DNA from: Owenia fusiformis
Lineage: Eukaryota > Annelida > Polychaeta > Sabellida > Oweniidae
Assembly (NCBI GenBank): GCA_903813345.2
Contig: CAIIXF020000005.1
Span: 35,467,375-35,531,374, forward strand
DNA: 64,000 nt
Direction: 5' to 3'
This document shows, one piece after another, positions 4,703 through 57,100 of the stretch. The notes beneath the pieces are model-generated. The model did no database searches, was not told where the DNA came from, and was given only the letters and a program-made list of their open reading frames with translations. Both the position numbers and the translations under genes were made by a program. How positions within the stretch are numbered: the stretch's first letter is position 1; the number at the start of each line of letters is the position of its first letter.

Positions 4703-7700
4703 TCATTCTTTCTTGAGATGTCCATCATCAGGCACTTCTTGCTCCTCTTCCTCAGCTCCATTTTGTATTGCTACAAGTAGAACAATTTACTCAATTACAT
4801 ATCTCATAAACCCATTGCATGTTAATATACATACAGACATTGATGCACAAATGTAGTGAGTTACACAAGTAAGCTAATGTTCTACAATAAAATCTATCTA
4901 ATCCAGATGCCACTGAGACTGGTGGAAAGTGTTTGAATTGGCAGGTGTTCACAGTTCAAGGTTTTTAAACATAGAAGTCTATGGCAGATTGTAATAGTGT
5001 TCACATTGAGAGGTGTTTGGATAATAGAGTTGCTCAGATAAACATGTTTTACTGAATAATTATAGAATATTACTATTGAGTTATTCTCCTCTGAACTTAC
5101 ACTTAAAATCTGAAATTCAATCAATAAAAATATACAGTAAAACCTCCACCTATTGGAGCCACAAAAAGTGTTCACTGTAGGTAGGTGTTCACTTTAGAGC
5201 TTTTTTTTTATACATGAGTCAATGTAAAAAATGCCTTGAAGTGTTGTTCAATAAACACAGGTGTTCACCATGGAAAGGTGTTCACTAAGACAGGTTTTAC
5301 TGTACACTGCAAATGACTTACATGCTCCACCAGAATACACATCATCATCATCATCATCTTCATCTTTCTCCATCTCATTCTCATCCATGGGTTCCATACA
5401 GCAAAGGGCATAGCATACTACTGATATTATCAATGAAGGCAGGCCAAACACCAATAGACCAAGCCAAATGGATGTCGCCCATACACTCTGTAATACAAGA
5501 GGGCATAGCATACAACTGATATGATCAATGAAGGCAGGCCAAACACCAATAGACCAAGCCAAATAGATGTCGCCCATACACTCTGTAATACAAGAGGGCA
5601 TAGCATACAACTGATATGATCAATGAAGGCAGGCCAAACACCAATAGACCAAGCCAAATGGATGTCGCCCATACACTCTGTAATACAAGAGGGCATAGCA
5701 TACAACTGATATGATCAATGAAGGCAGGCCAAACACCAATAGACCGAGCCAAATAGATGTCGCCCATACATTCTGTAATACAAGAGGGCATAGCATACAA
5801 CTGATATGATCAATGAAGGCAGGCCAAACACCAATAGACCAAGCCAAATAGATGTCGCCCATACATTCTGTAATACAAGAGGGCATATCATACAACTAAT
5901 ATGATCAATGAAGGCAGGCCAAACACCAATAGACCCAACCAAATAGATGTCGCACATTCACTCTGTAATACAAGAGGGCATAGCATACAACTGATATAAT
6001 CAATGAAGGCAGGCCAAACACCAATAGACCAAGCCAAATAGATGTCGCCCATACACTCTGTAATACAAGAGGGCATAGCATACAACTGATATGATCAATG
6101 AAGGCAGGCCAAACACCAATAGACCAAGCCAAATAGATGTTGCCCATACACTCTGTAATACAAGAGGGCATAGCATACAACTGATATGATCAATGAAGGC
6201 AGGCCAAACACCAGGGCATGTAGACCAAGCCAAATAGATGTCGCCCATACACTCTGTAATACAAGAGGGCATAGCATACAACTGATATGATCAATGAAGG
6301 CAGGCCAAACACCAATAGACCAAGCCAAATAGATGTTGCCCATACACTCTGTAATACAAGAGGGCATAGCATACAACTGATATGATCAATGAAGGCAGGC
6401 CAAACACCAATAGACCAAGCCAAATAGATGTCGCCCATACACTCTGTAATACAAGAGGGCATAGCATACAACTGATATGATCAATGAAGGCAGGCCAAAC
6501 AACAATAGACCAAGCCAAATAGATGTCGCCCATACACTCTGTCAGACAAGAGGGTATAGCATACAACTGATATGATCAATGAAGGCAGGCCAAACACCAA
6601 TAGACCAAGCCAAATAGATGTCGCCCATACACTCTGTAATACAAGAGGGCATAGCATACAACTGATATGATCAATGAAGGCAGGCCAAACACCAATAGAC
6701 CAAGCCAAATAGATATTGCCCATATACTCTGTAATACAAGAGGGCATAGCATACAACTGATATGATCAATGAAGGCAGGCCAAACACCAATAGACCAAGC
6801 CAAATAGATGTCGCCCATACACTCTGTAACACAAAAGGGTATAGCTTATAGTGTTTACCATCCTTACTAGGTTTGTTTATTTCATGGTATGAGGAAAATA
6901 GTTCTATTTAAAACCTGTTTGGGGACTTCAATGGTATACTACAGCACCATCTTTGGATAGAATACTCTAATTTGCAGACATATAGTGTACAGAATAACTG
7001 GAAACATGTGATCATAACAGGGAACTTTAAAATATTTGGGATTATTTTCTGCGGATGGATGTGTTTGGTAGTGGTAAATTGGTCAATGTACATAAATACG
7101 ATGATGGTCTGACACCCCAACTATGTAAGAGAGCAGAACTTTTGATTTTCGTGGGATATTTTTGTTGACATTTTTTTTACATGAAGGTGAGATGTTTTGC
7201 TGTATTTCTCTGAAATTCTTGGAAAATTTATGGGCTGCGATTTGAGAAAATCTAATATAAACTTTGTCAATTTAACATGCATCTTAAATGGTACAAAAAG
7301 TAAGGAGAGTTGTACTATAACTGATGTACTCAAACTCCAGCAGACCCTTTTAGTTGTATAGATGTCACTCAAAAATGAGAATAAATTGCTTGAACAAGAT
7401 TTTACTTTGGATTATTGAGTCGTTAACATTTCTCTCAAATGCTTCACTCATATCAATATGAAGAAATTTCTTATTATGGAATAAATTTGGAGGTTTGTGC
7501 AATTTTGTGCCAAAAATCTCAATTCATTGATTTATAGTTAATCTTATCTAGTCAGGTTGATCTTGATTTTAACTGATCAATATTGATCTATTTTCTTTCC
7601 TTAATCTAATTCTTTAAACAAAATAAATAGATTTGAACTCATGGTAAAGAGGTAAACATTACGGAAATGTATTTTACTTACGTATATTGCCATAAACAGC

Positions 7701-10700
7701 TCATAGAATGCACGCTTCAGCCTTTGGAAGAAACTGTTGCCTCCAAACGCCTTTAAAAAACACATAAGAAAATGATGAATTTTATAATCATAATTATAAT
7801 TTTAAATATTTCTAATATAATTTTAAATATTTCTAATACCTCAAGATATTTGATTAACAATACATGTACAGAGTAAAATAGAATGTGCCCTTCAAAAAAC
7901 ATCAATAGGAAAACCATTCATTGAATGCTCATTGACATTTATTTATTATTTATGACATCATAGAGGTAGTGGCTTAAAAATGATGATTTTGGTTCAAATA
8001 TTTGAATGATTGATGATTTATAAATGAACATGGTTAATACATAAGTGTTAAAATGAGCAACAAACATATACTGTATTCTCTCTTATTAGCACCCAGGAAG
8101 TTTAGAAAATTCAAAATACCACTTTCAGACAATTAAATAGCTTTTCTGATGTATTCATTTATACTTGGTTACTTTGTGAAGCGGGTTGGGTGCTCATTAG
8201 GGGGTGGGCACTAAATATGGCAATTGTGGAGTTCCTTTCTTTAATATCAACATGATACATGAAATTCTGTCTACCCAAGTACAGTATGAAATATTCCATA
8301 TACCTGTATTTTGCCATCTCTACATCCCTCTATAAATGTTTTCATATCTTCTATACACATTTTATCCACTCGTCCCTCAGGTGTGTAGTAGTACATAGTC
8401 TCCGTGTCATACACCAACATACCTGTTTAAATGTTTAAGATCATAGAAATAATATGACCATGGCTGCTGAGTAATTCCTATATATTTCTAATCAAATCAT
8501 TTTGGGTTCATTTTTTACATGAACAAATAAAAAGATATCAAACAATCAATTTAAGAAGTGTTTTCTCATGACTTCTTGATGAATTTGGACTACTATCAAT
8601 AAAATCAAAAGGAAACCATAGAAACTAAAATACCTGGCATTGGAATGGTTGTCATGGTTATGCTATTCACTGCTTCATTGTCAGACATCCAGACGAATTG
8701 GAAATCTCTGAAATCGAATGAGTACTATGCATGATGCTTGTGATTTATGGCTAATAGAGAGCTGTCTTACAATTGTGTAAACTCAGAGGTTTCCTTCTAT
8801 GTTCGGATTTTAGCAAATTTAACTGAAAAAGCATATTGACAAAAGTGATAAAGATTTTTCAAATTGACAAAGCTACATTTTTTAAAATTACAAAATATTT
8901 GAAGAATTTAGAGTATGTTAGGGTAACACTCTAACAGCCCTATTCAGACAGTCTGCACTTTGTGTTTTGGGTGGAATCATCAATCAACATGCATATTTCA
9001 ATGCACTCATACATACTGTGAGCACATTTGCTTTCAATTATTTGAATGTTTACCGCATGTAGATGTTCTACATTAAAGAAAAAAGTACATGAAAGCCAAA
9101 AATATTTTTCAACCAACACAGAAAATATGAACTTCCAGACAAAGTAATATTCTGTAAGAACAGGCCCATATCAAGCTTTTGCCAAGGGGGGGGGGTTGTT
9201 TTAAAATAAATCCCCCCTCCCTCCCCACCTGGGTATGGGGCTGAAGAGTATGACCCACAAAAGTTTAAATGGTAATGATAAATTGTGCCTCCAAAGCAAT
9301 CAACTTCAGATACCACCATCAATACAAACAATACAAATGAGAAGCCCTCTATGAAAAGTTCCCAGATGGTACAGATCATTTTTTCATTAGGCCAGGTTTA
9401 GTACCATTAACAAAGTGATGTCTAAATACATGAATAACTATATTACTCACTTGTGGTATTTGCTTCTCTGGTTAACCGCCATCATTCTTACTTGTTCTTT
9501 CACTCTGGAAATTAAATATAGATTTTTTTTTTCAATCTACAAGTAGATCCAATTGTGGGATCCCCATTTCTATCCCTTGGATGGATCTCTCACAAACTTC
9601 AGATACAGAGAGACTCTGATAAATCAGAATGTTTGATCCAACTTTTAATTTTCTTTTCATATAGTGTCTTCATTTTCAATATAAGGCAATTCAAAGTTAA
9701 TTCTACTTTTAACATACTGACAAAGGGCCATATTTTTGGAGGGTGGAATGTGAAAAGACAAACAATTGTCTATTAGGATCTTATATTATTCAATAGTAAA
9801 ATTTCTCAATTTTAAAGTTTCTGTTGTGATTTGAATAGATAACAAGTACATAAATGGACACCTGTTTGTTTGTTTGTTTCATTTATGAGCCTGAATCATT
9901 GAAGGGATGTGATGTTAAACATATATTAAACTTTGAATGGCCTTAATCAAAAATTTCAAAATGTCACTTCTTCTTTAAATTCCACGTTGGCATTTAGACC
10001 ATTAGTTGCTATTTTATTAGTGTCTAGAACATATATATCATATGCGAAATTACGCAGACTTGTTACAATTCTCATAACTTTCCATAGAACATAAAATATA
10101 TACAGTACATGTATATGAAAACAAAAACAAAAATATTTTGTAAAAATAGAATGGATTTTAGTGCATCTATAGTATCATATCACACTATTTATCAAACATT
10201 CTGTGGTCCTTTGAAGAGTCTTTTTTGACAGTGATCAAGTCTAAATTCTCTTCATCATCAGCAATGAACATACGTACTGAGAGAAGGAACTGATTTGTTT
10301 ACATTCTTTAAGAAACTGTTTCATTTATGAGCCTGAATCATTGAAGGGATGTGATGTTAAACATATATTAAACTTTGAATGGCCTTAATCAAAAATTTCA
10401 AAATGTCACTTCTTATGTAGCATTACCATCATGAAAAATAAGTTGATCTCAAACAGCTTCATCTACTATTATTACTATTTGCCTCTAGGCATCAAGGTGG
10501 ATCCTGTAGGTTTGTGTTTTGCATCTGCAGGACTGGTTAATGTTATTTATAGGTTGTTATTGCACGCCTACACATGCATTTTTGGATGCCTACATAAATT
10601 TTCATGGGTACATGTTGATTGCATCTGCCAATCTGTGATTTTATTGAGAAAAATTAAAACGTGTATTATTCATTTATTCCATTTATCTATATGTTTACTG

Positions 10701-13700: not shown

Positions 13701-16700
13701 GGTTATTTAAGTGCATGCATGGGGGAAGTTGAGGTATTACCTCAGACTATGCATTTGATTGTACATGTTACAATTACACCCAAATATTGCCCCCAAATAA
13801 AAAGTAAAAATAAACATGTCTCTAGTTTAAAAAAATGGATTTTTTCAACGAGAGTTCATTTAAATTTCTTTACACCAAGATTATTTTATCCCTCTGGAAT
13901 GTTTATTTTAGAAACATCAAGGTTAGGGAAACATCTGTCTAAATAGTAAAATATTTAGCTTAGGAAATTCCTCCCAAATAGACTTAAAAGTTGTTTCTGA
14001 CATGTTCCTTATCAATCACCATTTAGTGGCCTTAACCAGGTCAGACTTTGGCTGAGTGGAGTTTAAAGATCAGAGTGATAAGGCATAGAAGAGCTCAAAA
14101 ATTAAGTAAAATTATTGAAGCCTAAAAACAAAGACGATTTAATTTTCAAATTGTCAAATCAAATGATGAAATGATGAGATATGAGTGATATCACAAGATG
14201 TGAAGGTTATGAGAAATCCAAACCCAAAAACATGAGATATATGAAATATCACAACATGTAAAGGTTATGAGAAATCCAAACCCCAAAACATGAGATATAT
14301 GAAATATCACAACATGTAAAGGTTATGAGAAATCCAAACCCAAAAACATGAGATATATGAAATATCACAACATTTAAAGGTTATACATAAGACATCCAAA
14401 CCCCAAAAAAACATGAGATATATGAAATATCACAACATGAACAGGATATAAGGTAACACCAGGACATTGGTAGATTACCCCCAGTGAAGACATTGCTACA
14501 CACTTCATTATTTAGTAACTGAAAACCAACATAGCAACGCTATCTTGTTTCTTAAAATATATGCACTCAACACAAGTAGCAATTCATCAGAAGTTATGTT
14601 TATGTAAATGTTCAATCACTTTCATCACTGTAATGTTTAATTACTTTAATATAGAATTACATTTCATTACTATAATGTTCAATTGCGTTTCATTACTATA
14701 ATGTTCAATTGCGTTTCATTACTATAATGTTCAATTGCGTTTCATTACTATAATGTTCAATTGCGTTTCATTACTATAATGTTCAATTGCATTTCATTAC
14801 TATAATGTTCAATTGCGTTTCATTACTATAATGTTCAATTGCGTTTCGTTTCATTACTATAATGTTCAATTGCGTTTCATTACTATAATGTTCAATTGCG
14901 TTTCATTACTATAATGTTCAATTGCGTTTCGTTTCATTACTATAATGTTCAATTGCGTTTCATTACGGTTGAATTTCTTGCTTTAAGCACCAGTTGGAAT
15001 TTATTGATACTGTATTTTATTTTATCATATCTTACTATGTTCTATTTCTAATAATACTTTCAATACTGGAGAAATGCACCAACAAACCCAAGATATTAGA
15101 CAATGTAACTCCTCTAATAAGACCTATATGCCATTTTCCAGTGGGTCTAAATGATCTTGTTCACTTGAGATTCCACTTTATCTTCAAAAGGATAGGTATC
15201 GATATGGAGAACTGAATTCAACAATGTTTTTCTCTTAAACTAATCAGTGAAAACATTCTGTAAAAAAACATGGTATTTTATGTAATGTTGACTGATTTAC
15301 GACAATTTAATGCGAAAATTATTTAGAAATATTTTATATAACTGTTTTTGTTAACATTTTTTTTTAGTGCAATTGTTTTTGCTCCTTTCTACCAATTCTT
15401 GAGAATGAAATAAAATGTCTTTCCGAACCTTGTTGGAACAAAATAGCATATACAACATGTTTTTAGACCTCTCAATATTAAAGTTATCCAAAGGAATTTT
15501 TGGTTGATTTTAAAAAAGTATTCAAAAAATAAAAACAAAATCCCCCCAAAATAGATAAAAATCAAGAAAAAAACGTTTATCTAATTAACAAGATTTTTTT
15601 TTTAAATCAACCAAAATTTCCTTTGTACAATTACAAAATTGAGAGACCTAAACATGTTGTGTTTATGTCGTTTTGTTCCAATGATGTTCGGAAAGATATT
15701 TCATTTCACTCTGGAAACATGATACCAAGAACAAAACAAGTGTTTGATGGGTTTTTTAAAACAATATAGATGAAAGTATGTATATCTATTTCAAATTATA
15801 TTGTTACCATTCAAAAGATAGCCATTAAATTGACAATTTGTGAGATTTTCAGAAATTTTTGATGACTGGTTTAAGAGAAACGTGTGTTCAAAAAGTTTGC
15901 CATATCGATACCCATTCTTTCTAAAAACAAACATGATAAACTTCAATCTAAATCATAGCCTTGGCAAAAATTCAATGGAAGTTTCAAAATGTAAAATATC
16001 ATGTATCTCTAGGTGACGAACACTCTGGAAAAGCACCAACTGCTACTGCCAACCCCTTCCACAGAAAACAAGACAATAGCTGTAGAGAGTGTACAAAAGA
16101 CACAAGCGTGTGGAATCACCAACAAAAATGTCACACGATACAGAGGTAGGAAGTCAAATCAGCATTTCTATTCTTGGTGAGGAAATAACAGGCTTGAGGC
16201 TTTAGGTTTTTGCCAAAATATGCAATATATTTTGTAAACTGTACATTTATGAAACATCAGTATCTCATGTCACAAAAAACTCACAAGTTAAAACTCACCA
16301 GTTAATTTTTCACTCAATATTGACTTTCTAAATAGATGCCCATGGGCTTCAGAAGGGATGTGATCATACTACCTGCTCCTCTGAGTTCACTACTTAGTAT
16401 AACTTTAATGATCATACATCTAGTACAGGTAGTTTATTTCATACTCTACCCTTTAAAATTATTTTAAAAATTCATATATCTTCAGTCATATGAGTATATC
16501 AAACATTTCTGCTTCCAGACTGTGTGTCTGTGCTGCTTGATGGATTTTACAAGAGTGGTATCTATTACATCACACCTATCTATGCAGCGGGTGCGATACC
16601 TGTGTGGTGTGACATGGATACGCCCCCTGGGGGCTGGATGGTGATTCAAAGACGTATAGATGACACACAAAGCTTCAATAAAGGGTGGAAGGAGTATCGA

Positions 16701-19700
16701 GAAGGATTTGGTGATGTCAGCAAAAATTTCTGGCTTGGTCTTGACAACATGTTTCTTTTAACCAATCAGAAGCATTATTCACTCCGAGTTGACTTGTGGG
16801 ATTTTTTTGATAGTCGCGTGTATGCTGAATATAAACATTTCTACATCGATGGCCAAAGAGACCGATACAAGCTCCACGTGGCTAATCACACTGGCTCCTG
16901 CCCCGATGGTCTCAGCCATCATAATGGCGTTGCATTTTCAACCCCCGACCAGGACAATGATGCCTGGGCAGACTACCATTGCGGCCAGGAGTGGGTATCA
17001 GGATGGTGGTTCAACAACTGCTGGTTTGTCATCCTCAACGGACAATATTATAACAGCTCCGAGGTGAAGTATCGGGGAATATCATGGAACGAATGGAAAC
17101 AAGAGCAACTGCAGAAAGTGGAAATGAAAATCAGACCTACTTATTAATAAACTTAAGTTACTGATAATAGGGGAAATGAATGAATGACTTGAGTAGGGAA
17201 ATGTGGATGAGACACTAGCTTATTCCTGATCAATGTAATTATTGTACCTACTTTACATGTTTATCAATTGTATTTGAAAGTAAACACTGAATCATTGGAA
17301 TGTATTATAAATCTGTATGACTATAAATGGCATTTCTGAGAAATTACTGCATTTACCAAATACATGTTGTACACATGCCTGCAGTGTCAAAAATGGCATT
17401 ATGGACCAATGTTATTTTCCTATACCTAGTGAAAAAATCAACTGGTCCGTATCAAAAGTAAGTAGACTAATGTCCAGTGGACCGGACCTTGGGGCCTACA
17501 CTGCATGCCGAGTATACATGGACTTATTTTACTACGTACTTGAGCATTAATCTAAACATAAAATGAAAATATTTGTTTCATTTCATAATGGCAAAATGTT
17601 AGTTTAATCAGCATAGTGTTGCAGTGTAGCAATTGAATAGAATACCTTGCTAAAATGTGAAAACATGCTGATAATAAAAAACTTCACTTTTGTATTGACC
17701 AATGACATATTGTCACTATATATTCTTTTTTTCAATACTTATGCAGTAATAAATAGAGTATAAGCCTACTCAAACCAATATGTAAAAAAATATCTGTTAC
17801 TCAGGAACTAATATAACAAGGCATTAACATGCAAAAGTGTCACCACCTGCCATTTACTGCAGACACTGACCACCAAACACTGTCTACGATAAAGTTGGAG
17901 ACTATAGCAATATGTCACCAATTCTGGTGGTGGTGACATAAAAACCTGTAAATGTGAATGCCTTTCTAGGGAAACATTTTTTTATCCTACTTTATCTGTC
18001 TAATTGCTACCCATGCTACTGAAGCCAGTCCTAACAGCATTCACTTGACAAATGTTTAACTGAACAGTGATCTCCCCAGCATTGAGAGTTCGTGGTTAGT
18101 GTGGGTGCTGCCCTTACTTAAGATTTTGAAAATGGGTTTGCACTCTTTTGAAAATCATTTTGCACTCACTCAAAAATGAGAACGAAACACAAAGTGTTGC
18201 AAATCACACTTAAAAACCAAAATGGCCACCATGTAATTTACCCAACATGATAAAAACTTAAAACATAGCTTGTATATATAGGAATTTCAAGTTGAACTGA
18301 TCAATGGTTTTCATAGAATTTTGGTAACAAGATTTATGTGGGACCTGGTTCTTCAAAGTGCGATAAAACATGAAAAGTGGCATATGGGCTTTACCTGTCA
18401 TGCTTAGCTTTGTTCTGGGTATCCGTTTTATCAACCACAAGTATGACGACAAGTTTGCCGAGGGTGCTCATCTCATTGAGGGCACCACCAGTCACCTGAG
18501 GAAATGCGTGAAATCTCTCAGCATTTATCCAAGCCGTCAGTTCAGACTTGGTCGCCACATTTTCCTCAGCTGAAATACAATGACACATCAGTATTATGTA
18601 TGTCACCATGATTATGTTATGCGTATCAATACTCACACCGGAATAGCCTGACAATGGTAAAGTCAGATACCATTGTCACAAATGGCGGACATAACCGTTG
18701 CTTCAACTGTTTAATCACTTGGTCCTCATTTCATCGTCGCTAATTCTGTGCATGTATTAGCTCTTGTGATAATGTATCATATGAAATCCCATTTTTGATC
18801 AAATTGGGTAGTGAATCGCCACAATATAGCGTCTTCGATATCGTCAATTAGTAATTTAGAAAGACAATGGCATATGGTAATTACAGTACAGCGTCCGTTG
18901 TTCCGTATCTCATTTTGATCGGTTAAATTTAAGACTTTATTTCGATGGTAGAACATTATTAACTGTACAATGAGTATTAAGACACTTTGATTGATTGTTG
19001 TTCCAAAGGAATTTAGTCTAGGTGCTCTATTAAATATTAGGGGTACCAAGATACGATAAATTTAATATCGATACGTATCTACGATACTGACCTCGCGATA
19101 CGATACGAACGATACAATGATACAGCGTAAATTGAAGTAAAACTTAACTTCATTCTAATTTTTCAAACTAGTAAAGCCGGAAGTATTTCAGCCAGATTAC
19201 GTTTATTTCACATCACGACAAAGAAAGTTGTAAAATATGCTAACATCGATTAAAACATCTAAACGACGTGTGGTATTCGGGAACTATCGGGGCAAAGGAA
19301 GGTGGCAAGCAAGATACGTAACTATGACTGTCTGTCATCTCTAAGGGCTGAGTTTTTCCCTCCCTTTGGGTAAGTAAGAAGGGACTTCCGGTCAAAAAAC
19401 GATACACCGATATTCATTTTATGTATCGATACAGCTCGTATCGGAGGTGAAATGCTCGAGCACTCGAGCGCTCGCGGTACCCCTATTAAATATACAGTTC
19501 ATGAATTTGCATAAAATCTAATTGAAGTGACGGTTATGTCTGCCATTTGTGACAACGGTATCTGACTTGTCCGTTGTCAGGCTATTCCCGGGTGAATACT
19601 ACTTAATTTCTGTTTGTCAATATTTCTGTTTAATATTGTCCATTATTTCTATTTATTTGGTGATTCAGGGTCACAAGATTGGGAGGAAATAGAGTCTCCT

Positions 19701-22700: not shown

Positions 22701-25700
22701 CTGATGAAACTCCAGTAAAACGAGTGGCATCAATCTTTGCAACGTGTATCCCAGCATTCCTGAGTGCTAGTGCAACTTCCTTGTAGGTAGGCTCTAGTTT
22801 CTTACAGTGCCCGCACCATGGGGCGTAGAACTGAAGCAAAGTATTTATTATTGTACAACATTGTATTCAAATTATTTGTCTCTGCTTTCGAGTCACAGTG
22901 GAGGTATCCAAATTGAATTGAATATATTATGGTTGCTTATACATCCATGAATTGAATACGTAACCAAGCTTATTTCCACATCATTGGTCAGTGGTTACCC
23001 TGCGTGCAGAGTCTAGTTAAACTACACTCTGCCTAGTAGAGACCATATTACAGTTTAGTAGCCCTGCCCCTACGACGGGTACCGGTGACAGTTTGGGTAA
23101 ATCACTTTTGACCTACGCGCTGACCTTCCACCAATCAGTGAGCTTGAAGAAACATGCGCCAAATGCGTTTGAATTAAATCTTTTCACAGATTTCATTGCA
23201 CATGTAGATCCAATGTATAATAGTGTGACTGTCTTTAGCCAATGAGAATATATTGAATGCAGATATTTACCTCTATGAGCCAATCACCTTGCTTCCTTAA
23301 CTCCAGAAATCTGTAAATCATACAAACTAGTAGTTATCATTTAAACAAGAAAAAACATAGTCAGCATTATCTATCTGCAAGTCATCAGGCCAGAACATCT
23401 ATCCTTGAAAAAATATTGGGCTCGGCTATTACGCCTCACCTAATATTTGTTTCTCAAAGAGGTATTCTGCCATATCCAGCTCCTGATCATCCAGTATTTG
23501 TATAATATCGCCTTAGCAAAATGCATTAACGTTATTTCTCCTTATTTTCCAATTATTCAGTGGTACTTTTATTGGTGGTGGGATAATTAGTGATTTAAGT
23601 TTTTAATTGCAGTCTCTTGTGTAGTATGTATCCAACAGACCAAATGTAATATTCGGTCTAAATTTATTCAGACGAAGGATACAGATTACAGTCTAGTCTC
23701 TTGTGCATCTTGTCATAATTGGAAAACTCACAAATACTTGCTAATAGCCTTAGCCCTAGACTGTATCCTTCGTCTGAATAAATATTCAGACTGTAAGTCA
23801 CCTATTGTAAAATGTGGTGTTGTATAAATGTTACAAATAAGTTTGTTAATGATAAAATGATTATAGTGCTGTCTCCAGCTCCGATTTCGGTGATCGGCTA
23901 GTATAAAAGGTTTGAGGGTATCATTTTGTTCCAGACACTCGCTAGAGTAAATTATCCTAACTTGAGTAAAAATGTGTGGTAAGTAAATTCGCTATGGGCA
24001 GTTAAAGAGGCCCCATCTATTCATTTTCAAACAGGGGGTAGGGGTATAAAATAATTTTTAACACATTTTAATAGTAAAATGACATTGAAATACTAATAAA
24101 ATCTTATCAAAAACATTATTTACAATCAGTATGAATTTTCTTGTGTGGATTAGGGTGAAAATATGGGCATATCTTGAAATTCACTACAGGGGCGCCACCT
24201 ATTTTCATACTTCTACCACGTGTAATAACTTATTTTAGATTCGTTAAGGTACGACATGTACTGAAAAAATTCATTCTGAAGGACCTAAATATGTTCATAT
24301 CACATACTTAAAATTGGATCAATAGCTTTTGTACTGGCGGAGAAAAAAATTATTGAAATTTAAAATTGTGGCATCATGCAGGATAGGGGTGACCATATCT
24401 CACATTATTAACTTCCAAAATATGGAGCATATGTATCTCAAATGTACTCAAAATGGTGTATGTACTCTTGCTTTGTCATAATATTACTAATAAGAAGTAG
24501 AAAAATGATTGTACAATTTCAAAAAATATTAATTCTCATTTTGGCTTCTGACGTCCCAGGGGTGACCATATCTCACCTTGATAACTTCCAAAATATGGAG
24601 CATATGTATCTCAAATGTGCTCAAAATGGTGTATGCACTCTTGCTTTGTCATAATATTACTAATAAGAAGTAAAAAAAATGATTGTACATTTTAAAAAAT
24701 ATTAATTCTCATTTTGGCTTCTGACGTTCCAGGGGTGACCATATCTCACCTTAATAACTTCCAAAATATGGAGCATTTGTATCTCAAATATGCACAAAAT
24801 GGTGTATATAGTCTTGTCCTGTCATAATATTACTAATAAGATGTAGAAAAATGATTGCTCATTTTTAAAAATATTAATTCTCATTTTGGCTTCTGACGTC
24901 TCAGGGGTGACCATATCTCACCTTAATAACTTCCAAAATATAGAGCATATATATCTCAGATGTACTCAAAATGGTGTATGTACTCTTGCTTTGTAATAAT
25001 ATTATACTAATAAGAAGTAGGAAAATGATTATATATTTAAAAAATTTTAATTTTAGCTTCTGACGTACCTGAATAACTTCTAAAATTATGTAACATATAC
25101 AACTCAAATATACCAAAAATGGGGCATTTAGTCTTGCTTTGTCATAATGCTATTCATGAGATGTAAAAAAATTAATACACCTTTTTTTAATTGAAATTTT
25201 CATTTTAGCTTCCGAATCTGACATCCCAGGGGCAATTATATCTCACTTTGATATAACTCTCACGATATGCAACATATGCATCTCAAATGCATGCCCAAAA
25301 TGGTATAAATATAGTCTTGTTTTGTCATATTTATTGGATTTATGAAATCAGAAGTTCAGAATTTATGGATTTGACTGTCTCCCCTGAAGGGTGCAGCTAC
25401 ATATAGCCCAGAGACAATAAGATCTACTTTCAAATATTTGCATCTTCTCCCCAAACACTCCTTATATTACAGGAACAATGGACGATAAGTCTTTTGCATG
25501 CCTTGGATGCAACATCTTTTGTATACTGGTAGCCTATCAGTAGTGTGAGTGCTTAGCCTCATTTACAAAAATTGGCCCCTTAACCCCAAATCTGACCCGA
25601 AATTTTGAAAACATCCTGAAAAATTAGGCCTAAAAGGCGCATTTATGCCCAAACATACACCAAACTGTCCCACTGCTAAATTACAAGGGCGATAAGTCAC

Positions 25701-28700
25701 TTCTAATCCTGATTGACATTCTCTAGTTTGCATGGTTTGTCATGTGCTATATTGTTATTGCCCAATCCCAACAATTGTATTCACTGTATGGCCTACCGTG
25801 CCAAGAATAATGCAATTGTTCCAAAAGCTAATCTCTTCTTTGGGACCCTAGAAGTGTGGGACATCACAATCATAGATTAATATCTCATTACAATCAATGT
25901 ATGTTATGACAAACATGCAAACTAGAGAATGTTAATGTGGCTAGAAAGATTTATCATTACAAAGAGCTCCTTTTCCCATATTTTACATACTCAAAATCCC
26001 TTAATTCAGTGTATAATCCAAGGTGCATATATTGCAGGCCACAGGATAACATATTAACACCTTACATTAGCAGTTGCCATTACTTCATAAATGGAGTAAA
26101 GTACTCCCACTATTGAAAGGCTAAAAGGATTCCTGTATGGATTACAAAAGAATGTTGGGTCCAATGTATGCAAGGGAATAATCTCATCCATTGTACTTGT
26201 AAAGGGTGTTTGGGGAACAGATGCAAATATTTGAAAGCAGATATTATTTGCCCTGAATTATATGTAGCTGTAGAGGAGACAGTCAAAATCCATTGATTCT
26301 GAACTGTTGATTTCATGATTCTCAATAAATATGACAAAACAAGACCATTTTGAGCACACATTTGAGATGCATATGTTGCATATCGTGAGAGTTATCAAGG
26401 TGAGATAGCCCCTGGGACACCAGAGGCTAAAATTAAAATTTAAAAAAAAAATGTAATCATTTTTCTACATTTCATTAGTAATATGAAAAAGAGAATATTT
26501 GAGGATTATATTTTACGTATCTTAGAAGTTATTATTATTATTATATGGTGCGATATGATTACCCAGGAACGTAAGAAGCTAAAATTAAAATTTTTGAAAT
26601 GTATAATCATTTTTCTACTTCTTATTAGTAATATTATGACAAAGCAAGAGTGCATACACCTTTTTGAGTACATTTGAGATACATATGCTCCATATTTTGG
26701 AAGTTATTAAGGTGAGATATGGTCGACCCTGGGATGTCAGAAGCCAAAATGAGAATCAATATTATTTTAAATGTACAATTATTTTTTTACTTCTTATTAG
26801 TAATATTATGACAAAGCAAGAGTACATACACCATTTTGAGCACATTTGAGATACATATGCTCCATATTTTGGAAATTATTATATTAAGGTGAGATATGGT
26901 CACCCCTGGGACGTCTAAGCCAAAATGAGAATTAATATTATTTCAAATGTACAATCATTTTTTTATTACTTCTTATTAGTAATATTATGACAAAGCAAGA
27001 GTACATACACCATTTTGAGCACATTTGAGATATATATGCTCCATATTTTGGAAGTTATTAAGGTGAGATATGGTCACCCCTAGGACGTCAGAAGCCAAAA
27101 TGAGAATCAATATTTTTAAAAATGCACAATCATTTTTCTACTTCTTATTAGTAATATTATGACAAGGCAAGAGTACATACACCATTTTGAGTACATTTGA
27201 GATACATATGTTCCATATTTTGGAAGTTATTAAGGTGAGATATGGTCACGCCTGGGACGTCAGAAGCCAGAATGAGAATCAATATTTTTTAAAATGTACA
27301 ATCCTTTTTCTACTTCTTATTAGTAATATTATGACAAAGCAAGAGTACATACACCATTTTGAGTACATTTGAGATACATATGCTCCATATTTTGGAAGTC
27401 ATTAAGGTGAGATATGGTCACCCCTGGGACGTCAGAAGCCAAAATGAGAATTAATATTTTTTAAAATGTACAATCATTTTGCTACTTCTTATTAGTAATA
27501 TTATGACAAAGCAAGAGTACATACACCATTTTGAGTACATTTGAGATACATATGCTCCATATTTTGGAAGTTAATAATGTGAGATATGGTCACCCCTATC
27601 CTGCATGATGCCACAATTTTAAATTTCAATAATTTTTTTCTCCGCCAGTACAAAAGCTATTGATCCAATTTTAAGTATGTGATATGAACATATTTAGGTC
27701 CTTCAGAATGAATTTTTTCAGTACATGTCGTACCTTAACGAATCTAAAATAAGTTATTACACGTGGTAGAAGTATGAAAATAGGTGGCGCCCCTGTAGTG
27801 AATTTCAAGATATGCCCTTATTTTCACCCTAATCCACACAAGAAAATTCATACTGATTGTAAATAATGTTTTTGATAAGATTTTTTTTACTATTAAAATG
27901 TGTTAAAAATTATTTTATACCCCTACCCCCTGTTTGAAAATGAATAGATGGCGCCTCTTTAACTGCCCATAGCGAATTTACTTACCACACATTTTTACTC
28001 AAGTTAGGATAATTTACTCTAGAGAGTGTCTGGAACAAAATGATACCTTCAAACCTTTTATACTAGCCGATCACCGAAATTGGAGCTGGGGACAGCATCA
28101 TTACCTTATAAAGAACTTACAATATTATTTTTTCGTATATTGTCCTCTTACTGAAGATATTCATAAAATGTACAGACGCTTCTTGTAGCGAAGCCATTGA
28201 TTAGGTCAAGCCATTTTGGCAATGCCAATTCTCACGATAAACGAGATTTAGCCAGTGACGTCAGTCTATTTGTAAACAAATAACACGTGGAGCGGACGGA
28301 GCAACATTACGGAAGCGTATTGATAAATTCCATTTGTGCGGGAATTTATTAGATCTAGTCATTTATTATCATTATCCCGATTAATTTTCTTCATTTATAG
28401 TAAATAGAGCGGAAATATTCATGAAGAAGGCCGAGGTAATCAAGTGGTCATGTGTTGTCAAAGTTCAAAAATTTGCATATCTCGTTTGGATCTCGTGAAC
28501 TCAAACGTCCTTGACATTGATTTCGCGATCTACTTATGAACACATCCTGAAGTTTTGGTGAGTCTGAACATTTCATTATTTTATATCAACTTGTACCCGC
28601 CTTATACAAATATTTTTGCTTCTAGTTTAAGATGAACATCTCTTCAACATATTCACCAATTTTCGAGGTGAACATTCTTGTAATAAACGAAAAATTTATG

Positions 28701-48171: not shown

Positions 48172-51100
48172 ATGAGCAAGGTAATTAGTGAGACAGAAAC
48201 ACGTTTTGCATTCTAAAAAGTTACAAATCGATAACACCTACTGAAGCTATGTACTTGTACATGTATATGTATTACCGTAATTGCTTTATTGTTTCAGATA
48301 GAAGAAGCTACAAGTAATGCTGTGGATATCTATAAAGGCCTAGCATGCTCCCCGAGTGTCACACGTGGAGAGATCAGTTTTGGAGACAACACATCATTAA
48401 CTACAGTGACATCTATCTGGTCACAACGGGATATTGAGAGAAGTGAAAATGTGAAATTTTCTCGAAGCCACTATATCAGCCAGGAAAACCATATAGAGGT
48501 GCTTGCCAGATCTGCACCAACTGAACTAAAATCAGAGTAGGTTATACATTATTATGCATACAGAAAAACTGTTTATATTGACCATTTTTTTCTGGGAAAC
48601 AATGTTCAGTGTAAGTAGGTGTTCACTACATAGAGAGTAATTCATACAGAAGTCAATAGAGTATGTGCTGAGGAAAGGTGTCTACTAGAGACAGGTGTTC
48701 ACTAGAGAGAGGTGTTCACTTAAACAGGTTTTACTTTGTGTATACAGGTACATGTACATTATCTTTACTTGTAATAAGTAAAAGATAATATTCTCATTCA
48801 TGTATATCAATCTCATGTTGTATTTTTCTAGGATTATCATATTGCAAAATTCAATTACGCTAAATGCTGGTGTCTGCTTCTAATTATAGTTTTATTCAAA
48901 ATAAATCCTGTATTCATTCTTCCAAAATATATTGGTATGGATTAAATTGTGGCTCCCATGTTTTAACCAACATGTAACCTGGATTTGTATGAGAAATGAT
49001 TCAAATCACTATATTGAATACATATTTTCTTTCTGGACTTTCAAAATTATTTTAGAAACAATACAGTGAGTCAATTCCAATTCTATTCCTCCTTCCTCAA
49101 ATAGTTAAAGAAATGTATTTCATGCGGGATAAACACTGTATCTACAGTAAGACCCCCAGTACATAACCCTTTCACAGTATCAACCTTACTTTATTACAGA
49201 GTATGGAATGTCCAGTCTCCCAGTGGAAAGCTCAGGGTAATTATCAGATCTGTCAAGTCTGATAAACAAGATGAGAAGCAATATATTGAGGTATGTAAAG
49301 TCTGCATATATTAAAAATTATGTTAGTCAATAGAGCTTAAAAGTATGTAAATCTACAGAACTTAAAAAGTATTAAAAAGTCTACAGAGCTTGGAATACAT
49401 GAACATAGCAAGATAGACTTATTGGCAAATCTTTTAAGTTTTTCTGACTATTTGTTCTGATATTTGAAAGTTCTAATATTTCATTATATAAAAGTCACAA
49501 TATTTTACAATGTTTAAATGAATATGTTTACCCACTGTATCCATCTTTCAACTAAGACAAAGAAGGGGGAGGGTTGTTATTCATATCCTCTATGAAGCCA
49601 TTGTATTCACATACTTATTAACTTTCAGATTTGGAATACACAAAACAAGGAAAAGAATATTGATGTAAAATCTTTAGACATCCATGGAAAGATTTATGAC
49701 CAAGATGGTATGTACTTTTACTAAAATCAAATCCTCAACCTCTCAAAAGTACCACCTGATTCTCATAATTTTATACAATATATTTTGAAAAATAATGATT
49801 TAAGTGATAATGAGAAACTAGGGAAAATAGAAAAAGACAAAGAGACTTAATATAAGGCACTGGTTGTAAAGAAAACCATTTACGATTTGCAAAAGGAATG
49901 AAAAATATTGAAGAAACGTTGAAAAATAGTTTCTGTAATCATAACTTTATTTTGAAACATGTGAATGAATGAAATAAGAATAAAAAAAAAACCGCATAAT
50001 TTTATACCTAAAATGGTTTAAAACTAAAATACTAAATACCCTACAATATTACATAGATTTCTGTCATATTAATTAAATGTCTTACATGTCAATTGTTTTA
50101 GGTCACTTTGGAACTCTGCAATGGTCAAAATCAGAGAAATTCCTACTCTACGTGGCAGAGAAAAAACAGCCTAAAACAGAATCATTTTTTGAGAAGAAAC
50201 CCGAATCTAATAGCGACTCATCAAAAGATCCTCCTCTGCGCGGTGAGGAGCATGTGTTTAGGGAGATGTGGGGGGAACAGTTTGTAGACAAATGCCACCC
50301 AGTTCTATGTGTGTTTGACATAGAAGCAGCCACTACAAGGGTATTGGATACAACAAAGGTTTTGAACACTGAAATGGATATGTCTGCTGGTCAGGTAATG
50401 AATAAGTCTTTTTATGAATATATTGCCATACAGGATTAATCAAACCAAAATCAGTGTTTTTATAATTACACTTTTTCAACTCTACTTAATTTACAAAAAA
50501 GCCAAATGTTATGGTATATTCCGAGTCCAAATTACAGTATAAAACCTGTGAAAGTGGAACACCTTCTGGAGCTCTAAAAATGTTCAACTTGGGAGGTGTT
50601 CCACTTATCGAGGTTTATTTAACATTAAGTCGATTGGTCATGGAACTCTGAAAAGTCTTCTACTTACAGATGTGTCCTAATCACAGAGGTTTTCATATTG
50701 CATGTTTTACTATAATTACCACTCATACAGTATTGTTAGTACATATAATGAAATCTCATATTGTTATTTTTCTCTTGCAGGCAATCTGGACCCCAGGTGA
50801 CTCCGGTGTTGTGTTTGTAGGCTGGACCAATGAACCTTTCAAATTGGGTCTTATATATTGTCCACAGAGGAGGTAAGCATCAGTGATGCATGCTGGGTTA
50901 AGGTGTTGTTTGTCAGCTGATGAATGGAGATTTAGACTTGGTTTTATATACTGTCCATAGTAATCATTAGTGAGACATTCTGGGTTCAAGAGTTGCTTGT
51001 GGTACATTTAAGACTGGGTCTTATTTACTGTCCACAGGCTGGTTCCATATGGCATTTAAGACTGGATCTTATTTACTGTCCATTGGCTGGTTCCATATGG

Positions 51101-54100
51101 CATTTTAGACTGGGTCTTATTTACTGTCCACAGGCTGGTTCCATATGGCATTTAAGACTGGGTCTTGTTTACTGTCCATAAATGTGGTAAGCACCAGTGA
51201 TGATTCATGATTGCTGGGTAAAGTGTTGTTTATGGGCTTGTTCTGTGGGAATTTAAGACAGGGTCTGATATACTGCCCATAGAGGAGGCAAGTGGCAGAG
51301 ATGCATGCTTGGTAAATGACTCTGGGCAGGCTGCATGAACCTTTTCCAAGGAGGATTGGCAACTTTACCATGTTATTAGCTACTCAAACACAGAAAAACA
51401 TGGAAATTGCAACCTTCCCATGTTATAAGCTACTCAAACACAGAAACACTCGGAAATTGCAACCTTCCCATGTTATTGGCTACTCAAACACAGAAACACA
51501 TGGAAATTGTAAGATGTTATTATATATTTTGTAAATTGTTCAGTATTACTGATACTCTTTGCAGGAATGCTCTTTACCACATTGACCTGGAGTCAACAAC
51601 TTGTACGCAGCTTAGTGAAAAGGACAAATCAGTACGCTCCCCACGATTCACTCCTGATGGCAAAAAACTAGTGTACTTACAAAATGCCACATATGGACCT
51701 CATATGACTTGTGCCAACTTGATTGAGGTAAATCAATTTTGTTTCATATCATATCCTGTGAATTTGTCTTTCGACAAGGTAAATTTAAATTGATCAATGA
51801 TTTTTGGATGTATCTTCTTTGAATGGCAATATAAATGTAATAATTAACAAAGAAACATTGTTCAAAATACAGTGTGTATGTAGTTTACATGTATTTTGAG
51901 ATGGTGTACTTAAAAGTCAAGCGGATGAAGATTATGGCTTTACTTCTAAGTTGTTCTTTTGATATTACAGTGTGACTGGGCTTCAAAAAATTTGACTACC
52001 ATTGTTGGTGATTGTTTCCAAGGTGAAGGTATGTGTTTTTTACTAAGAACATTTTGACTAGTTAATCATTCATTTTGCTGGCTACTAATAGTAATCAAAA
52101 GATTAGATTAGATAATGACAGCCAATTCACAAATAAATTTGGTTTTAATGTGTGTTTACAAAATTCAATGGTAATTGCTGATTCTGATACTCAGCTCATC
52201 AATCCAGAGGTTTTACTAGAATTTCTCACAAAAGGCCAAATAAATGAAAACAACAGGCAAAATTAGTGGAAATCATCAATTTAACATGGAAAAGTGGAAA
52301 AGTCCATAAAAACAACAGGCGTTTTTGTGAAAACAACCAGTGAAAATTGCATGTTGCCTGCTGTTAATGAAACCCCTGAATTCTGTTTCAAAAGCTACAG
52401 ATCTGAAAAGAACAAAGGTGACATGTTTAATCATAAAGGTGACATGTTTAATCATAAATGTGACTTGTTTAATCATAAAGGTGACATGTTTAATCATAAT
52501 TCAGAACACCTAACAGATCAACTTTGCAGATTTGTTTGCAGATTTGATTTATTTTCAGATGGAATTTCAAAATTCCCAGGCATTTATTCCTTGGAATTTC
52601 CAACCCGTTGCTGGGCAACAGACAACAAGACTCTATTCATGAGTTCCACCTGGGGTAGCAAAGTTGTAAGTATAAATTTATTACTTATAAATATTCTATC
52701 AAATGTACTCGAAAAATTGGAATTTCTCTATCTTCTTGTCTGATGAATATTCTCATCTAAAAGACATGCTAGCAGAGACGCACAGCATAAAGATAGCAAA
52801 CAAGTTCAGATTAAGTAAAATAGTCCCGATGTCATTTTATCAATTGCAGATTATCAGGAACACCATTCTATATTCATATTCAGGCCTGTAGCCAGGGAGG
52901 GTGGTTCGGGTTTCCCTTCCTCCTGGCCAAAATTTCTTTCAAAATCATGCAGTTTTTCACCATTTTGAGCACTTTTCAAGTGATTTTAGACATCTTTGAG
53001 CCAAAGTTTTCAAAAGTGAACCTCCCTGGAATTAAAAAAAAGTGAACCCCTCTTGACAATCCTGGCTACGGGCCTGTTCAGTACACACGTGGAACAGCTT
53101 TGATACCTCAAAATGGTGTTCCACTGTGGAGTGAACATTACAACATAACAAAATGTAACATTCACTGTACAATATCTCTTTTTATGTAAATTAGGACAAC
53201 AATATACAGTGCACAGATTCAATCCGTTACATAGTCTGCTGGTTTGAATGGATAAATCTCTATTTCTTTTACAGGATATTATAAGCATAAACATAGAAAC
53301 CAAGACAGTCGCTAAATTGAATGAGGGTAAGATATAAGTTTATTACAATAACATGTATATAATATATAACATGCATATGACACTGATACATCTTAGGATT
53401 GGAATAAGCAGGTCCAAATACTATGACTTCAAAATGACCAGTTCATCTGACCTCACACCCTTTACATGCAATTAATAGAAAACACAAAATAGCAAATCCT
53501 AATGAACTGGATGCTTTCCCATATCAAACCCCAATTCATTATTTGCACTGATGCTGAGGATATATTTTTACTGACTTAATTTCTGATCATCCATTTCGGA
53601 TATAAATCTGTGTCAAGTGTCACTGTTAGGTGTCATGTGTCTCTGTTAGGGGTCACGTGTCTCTGTCAAGTGTCAAATGTCGCGATTTGAAATGTCACAT
53701 CTCACGAATCCGTTGATCATTCATTGGTTCCATTTACATCCTAATACTCTTTTATATGCTTGTCTGAATTTTTGATTTTTCCAACCATAAATAAATGGGT
53801 TCAACAGAGAATTTGCAGCTGCCATCAATCCTGTAATATCAAAGAAAATTGTAGGTATGTTTTTGTTGGTCCCAGCATAGGCAGTTTTCAATGTGATGCA
53901 GATAAAATATGGAAACCAACACAAAATGAAAAGTCCAACTACTATCGCTAAAACTTTTGCAGATTTTATATTTGCTTTGTTTTTCTGTGATTGGGCTTCT
54001 TGAGCTGCACTCTCCAGTACTTTAATGATGCGGTATTGCTTTTGTGCTTCCCAGAATATTATGCTATAGAGCACAGTGATCGTGATCATTATGAAGTTAA

Positions 54101-57100
54101 AGGGTAGGCCGGTTACAAGTGTCATGTAATACAGGGGGATGATCTTATGCCAGTAACAATTCATTTCCTCCAATGGATTATGCCAGAGTATTAGAACACA
54201 TCCGGATAATATACTCAACGCCCAGTTGAATATGACACCTTTGACGACCCTGGATCTTGTAACTATACTGTTGTACCGTAGGGGATGGAGTATAGCAATG
54301 TATCTGTCAATCCCAATACAAAGGAGGCTCAGACATGATGCCTGTCCAGAAGTTGCGTATAGAATATACTTGGTCAAACAGATATAACATGCCTGCTGTG
54401 TTCATGAAGTATTCGACGCTACCCATTAACATTGTGATGCCCATCACGAAATCTGCAGACGATAAACTTACGATAAAGTGCGCTGTTTCAGTTTGTAGAT
54501 GCTGGAATTTCCAGATTATGAAAATCGTCAGTCCATTTCCGAACCACATAATGGCCACGAATATGAGACTCAGCATGCCGTATATAATATCAGAATTAAC
54601 GTCCATATTTTCTGCAGCTGTTTGGTTGGTCATGTTGGACTCCATTCTTATTTTTATCTCTTGCAATATTCAATTCAACTATAGGATATTCAGTAACTAT
54701 TTCAAAATCAAATGAGACAAAAATAGAAATCTGCTTGTCGCTTTTCTACATGTGTCCCTCACTGATACAGTTGTTAAGTTCCTTTCTTAATACGTATTAA
54801 TCTACTCTCGTCAGTTGTTATGTTCACGAGATGTACAAGGAATATCTTTTATATTTCCATTAGATTTATTAGATACAGAATTAACAAATGAATGTAATCT
54901 AATACAAACACCTACCACCTTTTAGAGATATTAAAATATGAGTGAAATAACAGAATAATGGTTGTTTGATTTCTGGATAATTAGTCTAAGTATGGTATGT
55001 ATATCTCATGGTTTTAGCCCATGTCGTAATTGAGGCTTTGACCCAGGGTGTCAGGCCATCCATCTTAATATGTCGATCATGCAACATTTTAAATCTCTAA
55101 TTCTTGATTTCATCATTATGTACAGGGTGACCCCAAAAAATGGAATAACTTTGTCGATAAAAAAAGGATTTAATTTTGTGTTTTCATTAAACATTGGTTA
55201 ACAATTTTTTTCTAAATATATGCTGATGTCTTTTGGAATATCACTTCTGTTATAAAGTAGGCTGTTGTTTTCCAATATGGTTGCTCAATTCAAAATGGCC
55301 ACCATTTTCCCCTAAAAAATCTTTGATAACTCCAATATAATAAGACTACAGATTTTTTATCACACCATCGGTGGGATATAGTCGTCATACTGGTCGTGGT
55401 CGTGATCGTGGTCGAATGGCCGCCATTTTCCCCTAAAAAATCTTTGATAACTCCAATATAATAAGACTACAGATTTTTTATCACACCATCAGTGGGATAT
55501 AGTCGTCATACTGGTCGTGGTCGTGATCGTGGTCGTGATCGTGATCGTCCCGCTTTTTGTCATCGCTGTTCAAGGAAAACTGCTCATCAGATTTTCTCCA
55601 AATTCGAAGAGATTACAGAGCATATGAAGTACTAGAGCTGATTAACTTTTGGCTGACCATCTTGTTTTCTGGCGGCCATTTTGAAGGTTTTTCGAAAAAT
55701 CTTGTCATTGCCATTTCAGGAAAACCGCTCATCAGATTTCCTTCAAATTTACACACATGATAGAGGATATCAAGTACTAGAGCTGATTAACTTTTGGGCG
55801 GCCATCTTGTTTTCTGGTGGCCGTTTTGAAGGTTTTTCAAAAAATCTTGTCATCGCCATTTCAGGAAAACCGCTCATGGGATTTCCTTCAAATTTACACA
55901 AATGATAGGGGATATCAAGTACTAGAGCTGATTAACTTTTGGGCGGCCATCTTGTTTTCTTGTTCTTGAAATTTGTAAACATAATAGGAGAACAGTTTTC
56001 CTGGTTCATAGTGTGTGCCTATTTGATGGTGTGATCTCGTTCACGTCCTGTGCCTGGTTTAACTCAAAGACCACTTATCAGATTTTGTCTATATTTTATA
56101 AGCTAATGTGTTACGGAAATAGGACCTTCCTTGAGAAGGAATTCCCAGTATGGCTGCTCAATTCAATATGGCTGTCATTTTTTATTCTTTGATGACTCAT
56201 ATACCAGGTGTTAAATTTGGTTCAAATATAAAGGATCATGTCTTATGACATAGAATATATGTTCAAGAAGGAATTTTCAAGATGGCTGCTGAGTTAAGAA
56301 ATATTACCTCCATAAAAATATAATCTTTTGATGACTGAAAAACCAGTCATCATATTTGCTTTAGATAGGTATAAGACTCTGCTCCAGAAGAGATTTCAAA
56401 GATGGCTGCTAATTCAAAATGGCTGCCAGGAGAATTATATTTCAAAATGAGTCAAACACCAATTATCAGATTTGATGCCTTATGGGTATGGGGCGTCATG
56501 TCATGTCATGTCATGTCATGTCATGGATGTAGATTTTGTCAACAGGAGACAATACTACTGCCTTGATATTTCTTTTATGAAATATTAAAAATAATATTTG
56601 ATAAAATGTTTTGTTCAGTGGGATTTGCTACTCCAGGGAGTTGCTGTTTTTTAAATTAGATTTCAAGTTTAATGTTTGAAACTTTGCCATTCAAAAGCTA
56701 TAGACTTGGGTTCACTCAGGTCTTTCATGTAGTAGGTTTTTCAATGTGAATAAAAGTTTTTGCATTTTTTATTCATGGGTTTCATCTTTTTAGGCCACTT
56801 TGTAGATTAATATCTTAAGAGGGGAGAAGCACTCTTCTTCTAACTAATATACCTACCACTTTAACAATCGCAAACCTTGTCTCTTAATTATTATCCCATC
56901 GAACGAAGTTCGGAGGGATATAGGGAACACCTCCGTCCGTCCGTCCGTACGTACGTCCGTACGTCCGTCCGTCCGTCCGTCCGTCCGTCTGTCCGTCTGT
57001 CCGTCCGTCCGTCCGTTCGGGCAATAACTCAAATACCGTTGGCCCGATTTTGTTCATATTTTGTACACATATACCCTATGGGGGTAGAAGTTCTGCTCGA

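Follow-up and report, generated by a model that had tools for sequence, protein, structure and literature searches.

An array of 15 intron/exon-border units in a TMX3-type gene of the annelid Owenia fusiformis, probably a passive boundary minisatellite

A TMX3-type gene on the minus strand of a 64-kb stretch of Owenia fusiformis DNA (the window) carries, between its exons 13 and 14, a tandem array in which the end of the intron and the start of exon 14 are repeated as 15 units of about 95 bp, each with a 3′ splice site and the code for the membrane helix. We consider it probable that the array is a passive boundary minisatellite of the kind called `mirage' in lancelets, which would be nearly invisible at the protein level because mRNAs spliced at its upstream acceptors should be degraded. 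The border would first have been duplicated in tandem through a short direct repeat shared by the intron end and exon 14, and unequal exchange or slippage would later have raised the array to its present length. The majority of transcripts would join exon 13 to the acceptor at 5487 and encode normal TMX3, whereas those spliced at one of the 14 acceptors further upstream would carry an early stop and be sent to nonsense-mediated decay. Exon 14 itself, 166 nt from 5487 to its own donor (GTAAGT) after 5322, stays intact because the array lies on the intron side of its last copy.

The TMX3-type gene

The encoded protein combines a CGHC-containing thioredoxin domain with a thioredoxin-like region, and has a membrane helix with an acidic tail behind it. 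Pfam matches on the 412-residue model include PF00085 (E = 2e-22) and PF13848 (E = 1.2e-20), and the CGHC motif occurs once; the protein thus shows a single thioredoxin domain of the CGHC type beside thioredoxin-like domains that are inactive, and a C-terminal membrane helix, the last recognized by eye. The sequence-only reading had called the gene TMX3, an assignment to type that the domain plan supports, and we take the name to be probably correct on the basis of this plan and of the general features of the family. The same plan is described for TMX3 in PMC7563315. A sequence search of the PDB with the model led to PDI relatives, with TXNDC5 as the top match (2.2e-45), and an entry named TMX3 was absent from the best 60 of the 153 matches. 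Twelve exons with consistent phases and AG/GT borders were placed from FYAPWCGHC onward. The least certain of them is a 54-nt exon at 9504–9451, which we assume to belong to the gene because its phases fit and its peptide suits the family. A search for the first coding exon yielded no candidate, and the exon numbers used here therefore follow those of the sequence-only reading, whose coordinates for exon 13 were reproduced. An open frame that resembles a fibrinogen-related domain by eye lies on the plus strand at 16494–17144, within a TMX3 intron and opposite to the gene.

The features of the border region are as follows (window coordinates; a slash marks a splice border).

7682–7750, minus strand: TMX3 exon 13, ending in FYELFMAIY, with a phase 0 donor TAC/gtaagt
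6834–6845, minus strand: intron-side edge of the array, GCTATACCCTTT
5405–6845, minus strand: tandem array, 15.1 copies of a 95-bp unit (TRF and cutting at acceptors)
6165–6253, minus strand: exonic part of unit 7, with a 6-bp in-frame insertion that changes the helix to ...GLHALVF...
5880–5962, minus strand: exonic part of unit 10, the most diverged (6 changes), with an in-frame stop within the helix copy
5403–5414, minus strand: exon-side edge of the array, GCTATGCCCTTT, partner of 6834–6845
5322–5487, minus strand: TMX3 exon 14 as normally read, encoding the helix SVWATSIWLGLLVFGLPSLIISVVCYAL and then the acidic tail, with donor CAT/gtaagt
4703–4770, minus strand: coding part of TMX3 exon 15 with the normal stop, ending in PDDGHLKKE

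The 95-bp array

The array is placed between exon 13 (7750–7682) and the remainder of exon 14 (5487–5322), and TRF describes it by a period of 95, 15.1 copies, 95% matches and a score of 2646. Each unit consists of 12 nt of intron end and the first 83 nt of exon 14, comprising the acceptor and the membrane helix. Cutting at the acceptors gave 15 units, whose exonic parts start at 6823, 6728, 6633, 6538, 6443, 6348, 6253 and 6152 (units 1–8) and at 6057, 5962, 5867, 5772, 5677, 5582 and 5487 (units 9–15). The AG is intact in every one of them, at a border that reads AG/AG or AG/AA. The 15 copies counted in the sequence-only reading, each with a splice acceptor followed by a TMX3-type helix, were thus recovered; the unit length of 95 bp given there holds for 14 units, unit 7 being of 101 bp with six additional bases in frame. 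When the complete assembly was searched at the DNA level, with very common words skipped, the array was found at this one place only, and in view of its length and identity a chance origin of the resemblance is not an issue. Units, acceptors, frames, stop positions and, beyond its first exon, the structure of the gene are all read directly from the DNA.

The two edges of the array, GCTATACCCTTT and GCTATGCCCTTT, are alike at 11 of 12 bases. A match of this kind is what would be expected to remain if a short direct repeat had primed the duplication, from which we infer that it is likely to be the microhomology behind the first duplication.

Comparison with the lancelet arrays

Lancelet mirages have been reported in Adh3, the globins BflGb6 and BflGb9, TnC and PGBD5 (PMC3087553, PMC3902484), with Adh, TnC and PGBD5 given as further cases in PMC3902484. 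Like these, the units of the TMX3 array span the intron/exon border of a real gene and keep the splice signals (AG in 15 of 15 units), and the frame continues on both sides. The closest counterpart is BflGb6, in which an intron 3′ end and the 5′ part of the following exon are likewise repeated and for which two haplotypes with 6 and 3 units are described (PMC3087553), as against 15 units here. Because these haplotypes differ in unit number, variation in copy number between individuals appears likely by analogy in O. fusiformis. Further differences are that the hosts there are lancelets, whereas the present array belongs to an annelid and is known from genomic DNA alone, and that its unit carries a membrane helix in a TMX3-like gene. 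Among the matches listed in the literature search, boundary arrays named mirage were lancelet cases only, although others may be in print.

Predicted outcome of splicing at each acceptor

Splicing at 5487 would give the 166-nt exon 14, followed by exon 15 and the C-terminus PDDGHLKKE. From the other 14 acceptors the exon would be 261–1502 nt long, with a frameshift in the following unit, and in all 14 cases the reading meets a stop that precedes the junction of exons 14 and 15 by 108–1349 nt. That a single acceptor leads into the acidic tail and that the remainder shift frame and stop early had both been claimed from the sequence, and both claims stand. The productive acceptor had also been described as the one nearest to the donor, which is correct for the donor of exon 14 itself but not for that of exon 13, from which it is the farthest. 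Of the 14 upstream acceptors, 13 leave the helix in frame. An added tail of about 22 residues starting LYYRVYGRH had been proposed; the length of 22 applies to 12 of the 14 and the exact start to seven, whereas acceptor 6 (6348) adds 24 residues and acceptor 10 (5962) none, its stop lying within its own helix copy.

By the standard decay rule, an mRNA is degraded if its stop lies more than about 50–55 nt before the last junction; we assume the strength of this rule in annelids. Since all 14 upstream stops lie far before the exon 14/15 junction, nonsense-mediated decay is predicted for these mRNAs rather than the production of a short-tailed protein. The sequence-only reading had instead proposed that splice choice could switch between an ER-retained form and a short-tailed form; in such a protein switch, the upstream acceptors would yield a stable short-tailed TMX3 that exits the ER. 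The in-frame helix after 13 of the upstream acceptors (that of acceptor 10 being cut short) is what such a switch would need, but exon 15, which that account left unused, lies downstream and exposes all 14 mRNAs to decay, so that the switch is not supported. The tails also vary among the units, with no sign of constraint. The retention signal expected of the normal form is doubtful as well: the canonical di-lysine rule (KKXX/KXKXX) places lysines at −3 and at −4 or −5, and the C-terminus here, GHLKKE, has them at −2 and −3 only. The lysine-containing tail, which had been read as the mark of the ER-retained form, is therefore noncanonical, and switching of retention through it finds no support. 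The C-terminus of human TMX3 is given as KKKD in two reviews (PMC7563315; PMC3500226). Overall, the protein switch is unlikely, and we give it very little credence.

The passive-array reading is in keeping with an argument made in PMC2809761, by which new introns that splice badly are shielded from selection through decay.

Two further uses of the repeated splice sites were considered and dropped. In human polyubiquitin UBC, the units are in frame and their AGGT sites act as donor and acceptor (PMC10809524), which resembles the TMX3 array in the presence of a splice site in every unit. A dual-specific array of this type was rejected here because the TMX3 units lack AGGT and shift the frame (95 is not a multiple of 3); their borders read AG/AG or AG/AA and their internal donors are only weak or moderate. 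Cassette exons inside the array that end at the donors at 5864 or 5769 were likewise rejected, as those that begin at an acceptor at least one unit upstream include a frameshift or an early stop (by hand) and those that run from the donors' own acceptors would be just 3 nt long. These two sites, AAT/GTATGG, are the best internal donors, with a score of 6.7 against a native median of 7.5, and lie 3 nt past their own acceptors. They occur in units 11 and 12, where a common G to A change makes the exon start (minus strand) a moderately good donor.

Strength of the acceptors

Splice sites were scored with crude, weak matrices built from the window, using 14 acceptors and 15 donors of TMX3 and of a second gene, APEH; the APEH sites 52560 and 52666, which had been entered one base off, were left out of the matrices and kept in the junction scan described below. 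Native acceptors score from −3.7 to 13.3 with a median of 5.9 (leave-one-out). Within the array, 13 of the 15 acceptors, 5487 included, score 4.8, the acceptor at 6538 scores 1.3 and the most upstream, intron-proximal one at 6823 reaches 9.0 and so outscores the productive site, as far as the crude matrix can be trusted. Between 7661 and 5322, a total of 98 AGs received a score, and those at 6823, 7611, 6997 and 5990 exceed 5487. The matrix thus gives no ground for preferring 5487, leaky use of 6823 is possible, and some level of upstream, decay-bound splicing is quite possible.

A preference for 5487 would need the donor after 5322 to define the exon, an expectation based on published precedents. 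In the lancelet, Adh3 data and RT-PCR of the globins suggest undisturbed regular splicing, although the authors allow that cryptic use of extra sites could occur (PMC3087553). A one-step analogue is human CBS 844ins68, in which an intron-end/exon-start border is duplicated and two sites compete; the more distal duplicated site is strongly preferred and the mRNA is normal (PMC2630376). That paper words the sites as `donor' sites, and the work that it cites for them is titled as a study of 3′ splice site selection. The 844ins68 duplication differs from the present case in being a single extra copy, polymorphic in humans, and not an array. CBS also has a 31-bp VNTR, c.1444_1467+7(16_21), with alleles of 16, 17, 18, 19 and 21 units (PMC2630376, Table 1), which forms an array across an exon/intron border, from the exon into +7 of the intron, although on the donor side and with a short unit.

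These results bear on an unproductive-splicing rheostat, in which the 15 acceptors compete, 14 of them lead to decay and the length of the array sets the amount of productive TMX3 mRNA. It would be in keeping with the single productive acceptor and the position of the other stops far before the last junction, with the top score at the most upstream acceptor (9.0 against 4.8), and with a probable change in array length as in BflGb6 (PMC3087553). Splicing is, however, undisturbed in the published boundary arrays according to their reports (PMC3087553, PMC3902484), exon definition by the donor after 5322 would favor a 166-nt exon over one of 261–1502 nt, and the changes in the units carry no signal of selection (see below). 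We regard the rheostat as a minority possibility, though not a negligible one; a dose effect via decay is possible. In its more specific form, the 14 upstream acceptors, strongest first, would act as a length-dependent brake that diverts transcripts to decay, and the number of units would tune the dose of the ER oxidase between individuals and perhaps between the cells of one individual, which we hold to be rather improbable.

Divergence of the units

Thirteen of the 15 units differ from the array consensus, units 5 and 14 being identical to it. Some changes are common to several units (one to units 2, 6 and 8, another to units 11 and 12 and a third to units 13 and 15), as is expected from exchange within the array. 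Units 1–14 carry 16 distinct exonic changes from the consensus, ten of them nonsynonymous, where the expected fraction is 0.716 (p = 0.41); joint scoring of the two changes that fall in the same codon of unit 10 gives 9 of 16 (p = 0.18). The six extra bases of unit 7 were not counted as substitutions, and one synonymous change in this unit depends on the placement of the gap. Two changes are confined to unit 15; both are synonymous, and they are too few for a test. The conservation of the AG in all 15 units is no evidence of constraint, because only 0.55 changes would be expected in these 30 bases given 26 changes in 1425 bases. The changes in units 1–14 thus look neutral, with no signal of coding constraint or selection found, and nothing indicates that the upstream copies are maintained for protein function.

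The same differences are relevant to the quality of the assembly. Long near-identical arrays are prone to misassembly, so that the true copy number might be different or the array mis-joined, and a mirage in the B. floridae draft seemed aberrantly assembled to its authors (PMC3087553). The divergence of 13 units from the consensus, one of them with a 6-bp insertion, and the clean frame and splice sites at both edges argue otherwise. We thus consider an artefact most improbable; the copy number may be wrong, but the existence of the array is hardly in doubt.

The APEH array and genomic context

The window contains a second boundary array, in a gene identified as APEH from two matches to acylamino-acid-releasing enzyme: one of the exon at 50781–50872 combined with the following exon (E = 5e-24) and one of an open frame further on (E = 7.4e-31).

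50781–51316, plus strand: APEH exon (50781–50872) and donor, with degenerate tandem copies of the exon end and donor region behind them (within 50940–51316); best copy 52.7 bits

Decayed copies of the exon end with its donor lie at 50940–51000, 51151–51231 and 51261–51316 (73–80% identity), and copies of the exon end alone at 51004–51037 and 51103–51133. None of 200 random 101-mers from the window reached the score of the best copy on the same 500-bp stretch (maximum 24.7 bits). Splicing from any of the three donor-like sites of the copies (two GT and one GC) would bring a stop right at the exon end. This arrangement resembles that of BflGb9, in which a 3′ exon border is duplicated (PMC3087553). 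When 32 splice junctions from the two genes, TMX3 and APEH, were scanned for copies nearby, two had copies that span the junction, 5487 and the APEH donor at 50872. Two open frames at 53724–54669 on the minus strand, opposite to APEH, resemble a rhodopsin-type receptor by eye.

The assembly comprises 498 Mb, of which 477 Mb is in 12 chromosome-size contigs (C1–C12, 32–62 Mb each); C13 and C14 have 0.66 and 0.19 Mb. Tandem arrays are abundant in this genome: in 20 sampled 10-kb pieces (200 kb), TRF arrays of period at least 10 cover 9.4% of the bases, and seven arrays have a period of at least 50, at least five copies and a length of at least 400 bp, i.e. 35 per Mb. At this density, chance would be roughly expected to place some of the arrays across splice sites. 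The corresponding values for the window, which has a G+C content of 34%, are 10.6% and two arrays. In one sampled piece, an 88-bp unit recurs in approximately 29 copies (positions 7208–9704 of the piece). Two arrays of the window with units of ∼172 bp, at 24385–25052 and 26591–27597, lie on the upstream side of the placed TMX3 exons; their TRF consensuses are mutual reverse complements, and they form an inverted pair. The erythrocruorin linker family PF16915 is known as annelid-specific; it gave three matches above the cut-off on one contig of the assembly, one with an internal stop, and none in 14 control genomes, which may or may not include animals.

Significance

As far as the literature search reached, the 15-unit annelid case and the degenerate donor-side array of APEH are new and add a new phylum. 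They extend the lancelet mirage phenomenon to an annelid, in which the number of units is high and a single 64-kb window has two affected genes. If the length-dependent brake were true, boundary arrays would frequently underlie differences in gene dose in this annelid. The TMX3 array offers a naturally occurring test of the choice that the spliceosome makes between near-identical acceptors in series, and of the way in which nonsense-mediated decay may conceal repeats from selection and thereby allow introns to change.
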